Below are positions 8,470 through 10,510 of a stretch of 14,254 bases of DNA, one piece after another. Source of the DNA: Acinetobacter sp. (GTDB lineage: Bacteria > Pseudomonadota > Gammaproteobacteria > Pseudomonadales > Moraxellaceae); contig JAUNHS010000030.1 of NCBI GenBank assembly GCA_030523805.1, positions 1 to 14,254 on the forward strand, given 5' to 3'. How positions within the stretch are numbered: the first letter of the stretch is position 1; each line of letters begins with the position of its first letter. A model generated the notes under the pieces. That model had not been told where the DNA came from and made no database searches. It was given only the letters and a program-made list of their open reading frames with translations. The position numbers and the translations under genes are program-made.

Positions 8470-8506
8470 ACTTTTCAACAGTATACGAACAAAGAAGGAA
8501 ATGATG

Positions 8507-9691
8507 ATGTCTGCATATTATGAATTTTTTTGCCCAGTAAAGATTGTCGCAGGTCATGCTGCACTAGAAAATATTCCGTTTGAATTAAAGATTTTAGGTG
8601 CGAAGCGTCCATTAATTATTAGCGATCAAGGCGTGAAGCAAAATGGTTTGCTTAATCCGATTCAGCAAGTATTTGATGGGACGGAAGTAGAAATTGCAGG
8701 GATTTTTGACCATGTGCCTGCTGATTCTAGTGTAGATGTGGTGAGTGAAGTCGCAAAATATTATCGCCATCAGCAGTGCGATGCGATTTTGGCCGTGGGC
8801 GGCGGCTCGGTGATTGATACGGCAAAAGCAGTGAACATTTTGGTGTCTGAAGGGGGCGATGATGTTTTGCAATATGTTGGAGCTCATCATTTAACACGTC
8901 CACTCAAGCCATTATTTGTCATTCCAACCACGGCAGGCACAGGCTCTGAAGTAACGATGGTGGCGGTGATTTCGCACCCACAAAAACAGCAAAAAGTGTC
9001 TTTTGCATCGTATTATCTGATGCCGAATGTGGCTATTTTAGACCCACGCATGACGCTGACTTTACCAGCAAAAATTACTGCAATGACGGCTATGGACGCA
9101 CTGACGCACGCCATAGAAGCCTATACAGGGTTGGCACATAATGCGATGAGTGATGCCTATGCCACCGCTGCGATTGAAAAAATTAGCCAGTCTTTATTTG
9201 TGGTATTAGAACAACCTGACCATAAAGATGCACGCCTTGAATTGGCACAAGCATCTACCATGGCAGGGATTGCATTTTCTAATTCTATGGTGGCATTGGT
9301 GCATTCCTTGGGTCATGCTTTAGGGGCAGTGGCACATTTACCACATGGTTTGTGCATGAATTTATTCTTGCCTTATGTGTTGCGTTATAATTTAGAACAT
9401 GACCGTGAGCGATTGGCGAAATTATTATTGCCTTTGGCTGGAGCAGATGTTTTTGCAGCGACCCCAGCACAGCAGCGTGCTGAAAAAGTGATTGATACTA
9501 TTTTAAAAATGCGAGATCAATTACATCAGCTCACGCAATTACCACGCACATTGCAAGAAACAGGGCAAGTTTCGCCAGAGCAGTTTGATGAAATTGCTGA
9601 GAAAGCGTTAAATGATGGTTCTATTATTTTTAATCATCGTGAAGCGAGTTTTGAGCAATTAAAACAAATTTTACATGATGCTTGGCAATAA
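8507..9691 (+). CDS. Iron-containing (group III) alcohol dehydrogenase
   Basis: A cytoplasmic NAD(P)-dependent dehydrogenase of 394 residues, close to FucO/EutG/AdhB-type enzymes. The dinucleotide-binding site is AVGGGSVIDTAKA (96-108), followed by IPTTAGTGSEVT (139-150), the first family signature. The four metal ligands are visible: Asp197 and His201 in DALTHAIEAY, His266 in HSLGHALGA and His280 in HLPHGLCMN; their spacing equals that of FucO (Asp196, His200, His263, His277). The substrate cannot be told from sequence. Three ATGs run in a row at 8501, 8504 and 8507; AGGA at 8496-8499 is best placed for the third. It lies 12 bp before the DIP1984 gene, so the two are almost certainly co-transcribed. 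Confidence 0.93.
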   Translation: MSAYYEFFCPVKIVAGHAALENIPFELKILGAKRPLIISDQGVKQNGLLNPIQQVFDGTEVEIAGIFDHVPADSSVDVVSEVAKYYRHQQCDAILAVGGGSVIDTAKAVNILVSEGGDDVLQYVGAHHLTRPLKPLFVIPTTAGTGSEVTMVAVISHPQKQQKVSFASYYLMPNVAILDPRMTLTLPAKITAMTAMDALTHAIEAYTGLAHNAMSDAYATAAIEKISQSLFVVLEQPDHKDARLELAQASTMAGIAFSNSMVALVHSLGHALGAVAHLPHGLCMNLFLPYVLRYNLEHDRERLAKLLLPLAGADVFAATPAQQRAEKVIDTILKMRDQLHQLTQLPRTLQETGQVSPEQFDEIAEKALNDGSIIFNHREASFEQLKQILHDAWQ

Positions 9692-9703: not shown

Positions 9704-10165
9704 ATGATTTTAGCTGAAGCCTTATTATTACGCAGCGATTTGCAAAAGCAATTGGCATCACTGAAGCAGCGAATTAATAGTAATATGCTGGTGCAAGAAG
9801 GTGATGAACCAAATGAACACCCACAGGATTTAATCATTCACGCAATGCAACTGAATAAGCAATTACATCAGTTAATTTTGCAAATTCATCGCACCAATGC
9901 TGTGGCAAAATTACAAGATGGACGTTCATTGTTAAGCGTATTATTGCAACGAGATGAATGGATTGAGCACCATAAAATTTTAACGCAAGCCATTCAATAT
10001 GCCAATAAAGAGCCAGAGCGTTATAGCAGTCGTGAAATTAAATGGCAAAAAGTCATGAAAGTGGCACATTTGCAAAAGCAAGCAGATAAAATAAGTGCCG
10101 AAATTCGTGATTTAAATATGCTTATTCAAGAGCATAATTGGAAAATCCAGTTGCTTGAAGCGTAG
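9704..10165 (+). CDS. DIP1984 family protein (function unknown)
   Basis: This 153-residue, mostly helical protein matches the DIP1984 family, sometimes labelled 'septicolysin' in databases without evidence of lytic activity in most members. Features are the start MILAEALLLRSDLQKQL, the QEGDEPNEHPQDL segment (31-43), the signature HRTNAVAKLQDGRSLL (62-77), RYSSREIKW (106-114) and the terminal LNMLIQEHNWKIQLLEA, all in family order. Heptad-like hydrophobic spacing suggests coiled coils at both ends. There is no signal peptide or membrane segment, so a cytoplasmic location is likely. AGGA eight bases before the ATG supports the start. It is the last gene of the lipB run and is followed 39 bases later by a strong terminator. 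Confidence 0.88.
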   Translation: MILAEALLLRSDLQKQLASLKQRINSNMLVQEGDEPNEHPQDLIIHAMQLNKQLHQLILQIHRTNAVAKLQDGRSLLSVLLQRDEWIEHHKILTQAIQYANKEPERYSSREIKWQKVMKVAHLQKQADKISAEIRDLNMLIQEHNWKIQLLEA

Positions 10166-10204: not shown

Positions 10205-10229
10205 AAAAAGGGCAAATCGCCCTTTTTTT
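10205..10229. terminator. Terminator after the DIP1984 gene
   Basis: Arms AAAAAGGGC (10205-10213) and GCCCTTTTT (10219-10227) enclose a 5-base loop and are followed by further Ts (to 10229). The A-run on the left makes it usable from the minus strand too, where it would be the first clear stop for transcripts coming from yciO. Confidence 0.9.
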
Positions 10230-10244
10230 GTGCGATGAATAAGC

Positions 10245-10273
10245 TGGAAAAATTCACACGGCTTGATTATAAT
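10245..10273 (+). promoter_or_regulatory. Promoter of the small RNA gene
   Basis: A perfect TATAAT (10268-10273) lies 7 bases before the first base of the RNA's 5' closing arm (10281). TGGAAA at 10245-10250 matches four of six -35 positions with a 17-base spacer. The fit between the promoter-predicted start and the start of the closing helix is the main support for plus-strand transcription. Confidence 0.7.
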
Positions 10274-10280
10274 TGAACGG

Positions 10281-10496
10281 CAGAAACACATGAAGCGAGT
10301 GCTAGACCTGAGTTTACGGTACGTTAGGTTGAAAATATAACGAACCGCTGAATGACATTGCACGAGAGCCAGCAGTATGACTTTTGCACTTTTTAGGCTC
10401 AGCACATGGCATATTTTATAGCGTGAGCATATCACGGTACATTTTATAAGGTTTAAAACCAGCACAACCAAGTACTGATCATGTGTTTCTGTTTTT
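10281..10496 (+). ncRNA. ssrS: Structured small RNA of about 211 nt, 6S RNA (SsrS) candidate
   Basis: The two ends, CAGAAACACATGA (10281-10293) and TCATGTGTTTCTG (10479-10491), form a perfect 13-bp helix, followed by T5 (10492-10496). A TATAAT sits 7 bases upstream. Inside, GTGCT (10299-10303) pairs with AGCAC (10461-10465). An apical arm forms from CGCT (10346-10349) with AGCG (10420-10423), ATG-CAT-GC (10352-10361) with GC-ATG-CAT (10402-10412), and GAGCC (10366-10370) with GGCTC (10396-10400). A closing stem, a wide AT-rich centre and an apical stem are the plan of 6S RNA, which mimics an open promoter and binds sigma-70 polymerase. The 5' block AAGCGAG...AG..CCTGAG resembles E. coli 6S (AAGCGGG..AG...CCTGAG) at a similar position. 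No protein frame fits. The RNA gene is well supported; the 6S name is tentative, and the usual zapA/fau neighbours are absent. Confidence 0.65.
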
Positions 10497-10510
10497 GCTT
10501 GACTATTTAA

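Follow-up and report, generated by a model that had tools for sequence, protein, structure and literature searches.

An RNA gene downstream of DIP1984

The window analysed here, a stretch of 14,254 nucleotides, belongs to an Acinetobacter sp. genome (G000) of 1.85 Mb in 220 contigs that is 90% complete. On the forward strand, a gene encoding a DIP1984-family protein (DUF6847; 9704..10165; NF038048 with E = 2.7e-47, PF20935 with E = 1.1e-44), the proposed RNA partner, is followed by a structured noncoding RNA gene (10279..10493), with a yciO-like gene on the other side. The refined covariance model R2 matches the RNA at 10281-10490 (108.3 bits, E = 6.9e-25), the window being one of its 37 training rows. 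The preliminary description had placed an unannotated RNA gene in this gap, and conservation and covariation in relatives support the gene as a class of its own.

Between both genes, the DIP1984 transcript probably ends at an intrinsic terminator (10205..10231, forward strand), an inverted repeat with arms at 10205-10213 and 10219-10227 followed by a T-run; it is absent from the output of the terminator-pattern scan. The TATAAT pointed out earlier is part of a promoter-like site TGGAAA-17-TATAAT (10245..10273, forward strand) with 10 of 12 consensus matches. By itself this site is weak evidence, because the scanned 1.5 kb contains 10 such sites versus 5.1 ± 2.5 in shuffles. At the other end of the RNA, the expected T-run is present as T5 (10492-10496), where the pattern scan lists no classical terminator. 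An iron-containing alcohol dehydrogenase gene (window 8501-9691) stops 12 nt ahead of DIP1984, and the two genes possibly share a transcript. We note that yciO was rejected as a meaningful neighbour: the best yciO match is found in G157, yet a different gene lies beyond yciO there, and neither DIP1984 nor the RNA was matched in G157. The neighbour that counts for the RNA is the upstream DIP1984 gene.

The two ends of the RNA are joined by helix P1, the perfect 13-bp pairing already described, between 10281..10293 and 10479..10491 (inverted-repeat search and sequence), directly followed by T5; two more G.U pairs are possible on its outer side. Inwards the helix runs on beyond a conserved internal loop—AGCG (10294..10297; GGCG in most members) opposite GA (10477-10478)—into P2, which consists of AGTGC (10298..10302) and GTACT (10472-10476). 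The interior contains a pseudoknot that is invisible to a minimum free energy fold. Its stem S1 pairs GACCT (10305..10309) with AGGTT (10326-10330), its stem S2 pairs CGGTACGTT (10317..10325) with AACGAACCG (10339-10347) with one mismatch, and its A-rich loop is GAAAATAT (10331..10338). P5, the apical stem of the earlier account, pairs GAGCC (10366..10370) with GGCTC (10396-10400) and is followed by the conserved AGCAC (10401-10405). CACAACC (10463..10469) is the counterpart of a conserved CAYTACC ahead of the 3' arm of P2. All of these elements are read on the forward strand. The anatomy of the class is P1, GGCG/GA loop, P2, pseudoknot with S1 (GAyCC/GGrTT) and S2, P5-AGCAC, CAYTACC and the 3' arm of P2; some members carry an extra hairpin between P5-AGCAC and CAYTACC. 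The fold of the window RNA has a minimum free energy of −62.4 kcal/mol (z = −3.22), and none of 200 shuffles was equally stable.

Compensating changes in relatives reveal strong covariation. The underlying alignment of 37 sequences (A5, also the basis of R2) excludes near-duplicates and, with the exception of L106, RNAs from outside the Moraxellaceae. Its covariation score of 0.490 (0.220 ± 0.010 in shuffles) was reached in 0 of 500 shuffles; 30 of 35 pairs are changed on both sides (20.2 in shuffles), double-change cells number 228 (69 in shuffles), and 91.6% of cells are paired in the proposed structure versus 33–39% on sliding, whereby shuffles ignore relatedness, slides retain it, and the same sequences had yielded the structure. 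In P1, covariation is found at 10 of 10 pairs. MAFFT misplaced the P5 of the window by four columns in A5. The outer half of S2 is aligned differently between groups and was excluded from the counts; the edge of S2 at columns 67/81 is not general, because this pair stays open in 29 sequences.

The preliminary description had proposed the RNA as a candidate divergent 6S RNA. Both share a length of about 200 nt, a long closing helix and a promoter-like site, and presumably the 5' block resembles that of E. coli 6S. However, the 6S model (RF00013) has no match in the window at E ≤ 10, and a true, full-length 6S RNA (model positions 1-187, 109.7 bits, E = 2.2e-23) is located on another contig of the genome (G000:C78:4766-4952). 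The 6S name is therefore refuted, on the very grounds that the preliminary description had set for this, and we give this identity practically no credence. R2 likewise has no match at the 6S locus (L001) at E ≤ 10. RNase P is found on a contig other than those of the window and of 6S. With all Rfam models, the window yields 22 weak matches at E ≤ 10, none of which overlaps 10281-10491, and Rfam 15 has no match to the new RNA in 10 loci at E ≤ 1 or in 14 loci at gathering score. In eight rtc loci the new RNA is unmatched at E ≤ 0.01, with YrlA RNAs present as separate RNAs. The YrlA model (RF02553) specifically has no match to the new RNA in the window (E ≤ 10), in the 10 loci (E ≤ 1), in the 14 loci (gathering score) or in the eight rtc loci (E ≤ 0.01). 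ARAGORN reports neither tRNA nor tmRNA in the window, and Rfam neither of them at the RNA. A miniature mobile element was considered owing to the terminal repeat; the single copy in the genome speaks against it.

Relatives of the RNA and their linkage to DIP1984

Relatives of the RNA are detected by covariance models only. DNA searches returned the window's own copy alone from 59 genomes of the genus, no relative from plasmids and phages, and from 347 other genomes of the family many matches with E ≤ 1, all of them short (best E = 0.00115 over 26 bases). Model R1, constructed from the window sequence alone, matches in 10 other genomes of 348 (E ≤ 0.05), and each of the 10 follows a same-strand DIP1984 match at a distance of 22–172 nt. 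The linkage is unbiased, since R1 was built without knowledge of DIP1984. In the same 348 genomes, the NF038048 profile matches in 136, in 133 of them above cut-off.

R2 was refined from the 37 sequences, hence its training rows match by construction. At E ≤ 0.001 it detects the RNA in 80 of 175 genus genomes, 79 with and one without DIP1984. Among the DIP1984 matches listed, the RNA is present in 79 of 79 genomes with DIP1984 versus 1 of 96 others (Fisher p = 6e-50, a value that ignores relatedness and includes rows that trained R2). Within the genus, 90 of 91 R2 matches are directly downstream of DIP1984, and all 81 DIP1984 genes entered from the matches listed are accompanied by the RNA, nine of them by two copies; the genus count omits four divergent DIP1984 paralogues (G097:C2, G005:C210 and the second genes of G113 and G140). 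The exception (G013; L122:1531-1701) is an RNA whose 5' half has decayed, and the 3.5 kb examined around it contain no DIP1984. In G180 (L060) the DIP1984 match spans only profile positions 1-109 in one frame, and the RNA is apparently intact.

The 30 best-scoring DIP1984 loci (L067-L096) all have the RNA downstream. After removal of the duplicates L078, L084 and L095, it starts 1–97 nt past the stop codon in the remaining 27 loci, seven of which carry two tandem copies. A scanner for the end motif, devised after the motif had been seen, is positive in 45 of 50 distinct 3' flanks of DIP1984. It never responds in the controls, namely 50 upstream flanks, 50 reverse complements, 111 windows farther downstream and 2500 shuffles. 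The five flanks that it misses (L005, L069, L073, L075, L089) show motif variants by eye; L112, whose protein match begins at residue 31, was not included for that reason. A chance origin of the end helix had been judged very unlikely in the preliminary description; the repeat is real, and the flank scans together with the covariation are better evidence than the chance estimate.

The RNA is presumably transcribed. In 8 of 47 distinct flanks a TATAAT or TATGAT is located 16 nt ahead of the internal loop, and no rtc gene was seen beside these eight; the corresponding distance in the window is 20 nt, counted from the end of the TATAAT. Certain rtc loci (L080, L081 and L100 among them) have a hairpin in place of these hexamers, which suggests that the RNA may be released there by processing.

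The surmise that the RNA might be a lineage-specific class holds for the class and fails for the lineage, as the RNA follows DIP1984 into other phyla. The end motif is found 3' of DIP1984 in a Moraxella MAG (L003) and in a genome from another family of the same class (L106, G426). For Bacteroidota, it is found in Bacteroidales (L004; scanner-positive, P2 = AACCGG/CCGGTT, R2 with E = 0.11) and in Prevotella (L005; loop GTGTG/GA, recognised by eye). Further instances are Picosynechococcus sp. PCC 7003 (L097, Cyanobacteriota; R2 with E = 6.9e-8), Enterococcus (L098 and L101, Bacillota; the former scanner-positive), Mycolicibacterium (L112, Actinomycetota; by eye, R2 with E = 0.0085) and a contig of a viral collection (L103; R2 with E = 2.8e-4). 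R2 misses L098, L101 and L005 at E ≤ 10, so the RNAs at these loci rest on the motif and its pairing, and the RNA of L004 likewise rests on the motif. Another carrier is Psychrobacter sp. YP14 (L113). Among 229 sampled Pseudomonadota genomes, DIP1984 is above cut-off in three, namely the window's own, another Moraxellaceae and G426, with sub-cut-off NF038048 matches in large proteins of other Pseudomonadota disregarded. None of 14 control genomes has a DIP1984 match. A DIP1984 match is contained in 372 plasmid records, 344 of which are from Acinetobacter. Exact-pattern searches of viral contigs gave 20 stretches, 19 of which were tested and have no R2 match at E ≤ 1 (L139, the same contig as L103, was excluded). 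On L103, 13 tRNA genes (5-2812) are found directly upstream of the DIP1984-RNA pair.

RNA-repair operons and the DIP1984 protein

Among the DIP1984 matches listed, 48 of the 79 genus genomes with DIP1984 have RtcB within 3 kb of it (median gap 511 bp) and 31 do not. Of the 51 genomes whose RtcB match measures about 1122–1131 nt, 48 have DIP1984 as its neighbour, the match in G101 being in two pieces. The distance count comprises the matches of this length and the G101 pieces; other RtcB positions were checked by eye, and none is closer than 3 kb. In 18 rtc stretches (16 distinct loci), chosen for RtcB or RtcA already seen near DIP1984, RtcB always precedes DIP1984, all on one strand, and RtcA follows on the 3' side in all except L082, where the stretch ends too early (L123 counted for the L076 locus). 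In A. baumannii p2VB280821, rtcR comes first, on the opposite strand, and is followed by RNase Z, rtcB, a small protein, DIP1984, the RNA and rtcA. The same order is found in 'Acinetobacter phage MD-2021a' (L115), a record that besides its rtc operon also holds pepD and aroA and therefore looks like a bacterial chromosome filed as a phage. At one locus the gene of a 217-aa protein (L100:3340-3990) separates rtcB from DIP1984; Pfam gives no match for this protein at E ≤ 0.01, and PADLOC a single weak one.

In the window's genome, at its completeness of 90%, neither RtcB nor RtcA was found, and the DIP1984-RNA pair stands alone, the RNA having its own promoter-like site. This, together with the 31 genomes that have no RtcB nearby, implies that the pair can act without these enzymes or with repair enzymes encoded elsewhere.

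Some of these operons also contain the Ro60 homologue Rsr and its Y RNA. A Ro60/TROVE match is present in 10 of 137 genus genomes, nine of them over cut-off, and the window's genome is not among them. Nine of the ten matches (eight over cut-off) are situated at an rtc-DIP1984 locus; the tenth, in G157, is in a genome without DIP1984. The single Rsr examined has TROVE and vWA_Ro60 domains. All nine loci with Rsr near DIP1984 have the order Rsr, YrlA (1–3 copies), RtcB, DIP1984, new RNA (1–2 copies), and their YrlA RNAs match RF02553 with 46–62 bits, below the gathering score of 69, at E ≤ 3.3e-7. Copy numbers rise together (L153-L161): five loci have one YrlA and one new RNA, four loci have two to three YrlA and two new RNAs.

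DIP1984 is predicted with high confidence to consist of four helices (pLDDT 93.5). A Foldseek search of the PDB at E ≤ 0.001 gives two matches, both to chains of 3kdq, which is itself functionally uncharacterised, so the fold yields no hint of RNA binding. At E ≤ 0.01 neither PADLOC nor PHROGs matches DIP1984. Two of the four divergent paralogues (L125:1875-2324 and L123:4512-4964) are altered in the otherwise conserved VQEGDEP and RYS motifs, and R2 has no match downstream of either. From the linkage, and from the absence of the RNA beside these two paralogues, we infer that DIP1984 binds the RNA.

A proposed ribonucleoprotein and its alternatives

The class, its covarying structure with a pseudoknot, its linkage to DIP1984 and, in many relatives, its RtcB/RtcA operon context are established. 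We consider it probable that 10279-10493 encodes a structured RNA of about 210 nt, of an apparently undescribed class, which has DIP1984 as its dedicated partner and forms with it a ribonucleoprotein of RNA repair. The helical DIP1984 would bind the RNA, most likely at its conserved base of P1, GGCG/GA loop, P2 and CAYTACC. The ribonucleoprotein may then assist when broken RNAs, probably tRNAs, are repaired, sorted or protected, a role parallel to that proposed for the pair of Rsr and Y RNA. In the account of PMC7790460, tRNA fragments switch on the rtc operon of Salmonella, which is implicated in repairing tRNA and whose Rsr and Y RNAs might aid tRNA decay or shield tRNAs from a nuclease. A more far-reaching version, which we put forward tentatively and with somewhat less than even confidence, holds that the ribonucleoprotein is a second, independently evolved device of the Ro60-Y RNA kind that is found across phyla. 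It would bind broken or misfolded tRNAs and pass them to RtcB and RtcA, and on plasmids and phages it would act as a counter-defence against tRNA-cleaving nucleases.

The proposed way of working resembles that of Rsr and Y RNA. Both pairs consist of a protein gene with at least one structured RNA gene behind it and occur in RtcB operons (rsr-yrlBA-rtcBA in the case of Rsr; in many relatives, but not in the window's genome, in the case of DIP1984), and both are present in the same nine loci. In contrast to Rsr with its TROVE and vWA domains, DIP1984 matches DUF6847, and unlike YrlA, the new RNA contains a pseudoknot and has no match to the YrlA model. The DIP1984-RNA pair also differs in its occurrence without rtc genes, on plasmids and beside the tRNA cluster of a viral contig. 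One could also take the new RNA for a further Y RNA that Rsr binds instead of DIP1984, a notion that could draw on the shared nine operons and on the joint rise in copy numbers. Rsr is not the constant companion, however: all 79 genomes with DIP1984 have the RNA behind it, against a TROVE match in only 10 of 137 genus genomes, and in the window the RNA adjoins DIP1984 rather than an Rsr/TROVE gene, beside which Y RNAs are encoded. Genuine YrlA RNAs are moreover present separately, and we regard an extra Y RNA as very unlikely.

Type III toxin-antitoxin RNAs (ToxI and kin) are pseudoknotted, encoded next to their own protein and often plasmid-borne, traits that the new RNA shares. If DIP1984 were a toxin restrained by the pseudoknotted RNA, its frequency in plasmid records and the tandem copies at 9 of the 81 listed DIP1984 genes would be accounted for. 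However, in ToxIN-type systems the RNA is a short array of repeats upstream of a ToxN-like nuclease gene, whereas the new RNA is about 200 nt long and downstream of its gene. The PDB search turns up no nuclease related to the predicted helical bundle of DIP1984, DIP1984 lacks a PADLOC match, and the location within rtc operons also argues against a toxin, so that this reading appears improbable to us. About equally unlikely is a cis-acting 3' element that merely regulates or stabilises the DIP1984 mRNA. It would explain why the RNA is always on the strand of DIP1984 and usually at most 60 nt from the gene, yet in the window the probable terminator and the promoter-like site intervene, eight of the 47 flanks have their own TATAAT or TATGAT, two tandem copies occur, and the RNA is longer and more conserved than a plain 3' end.

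We rate the RNA-DIP1984 pair as new, because no family of known function includes either the RNA or the protein. The DIP1984 protein of the window is of the same DUF6847 family as PDB 3kdq, which is listed as of unknown function. In the titles, beginnings of abstracts and passages of open-access literature covered, we recognised no description of such an RNA and found no RNA adjoining DIP1984. In the passages covered, p2AB5075 is mentioned in neither of two A. baumannii sRNA papers, and rtcA/rtcB is absent from one of them. The RNA adds a pseudoknotted class and offers a clue to a widespread family of proteins that have no known function and at times bear the label of a cytolysin. The label 'septicolysin' is attached to DIP1984 in some Acinetobacter plasmid records (H12, H27, H70 and others) and in papers, and a plasmid review treats the protein as septicolysin, a putative cytolysin (PMC5559437). 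The steady company of an RNA, and often of RNA-repair genes, argues against this label, and a cytolysin role is not supported by the family and context of DIP1984. Next to Rsr and Y RNA, DIP1984 and its RNA would be the second protein-RNA pair of RNA-repair operons, which makes the role of noncoding RNA in these operons directly testable. The pairs on plasmids and behind the 13 tRNA genes of the viral-collection contig suggest that tRNA damage and repair may serve as weapons there.
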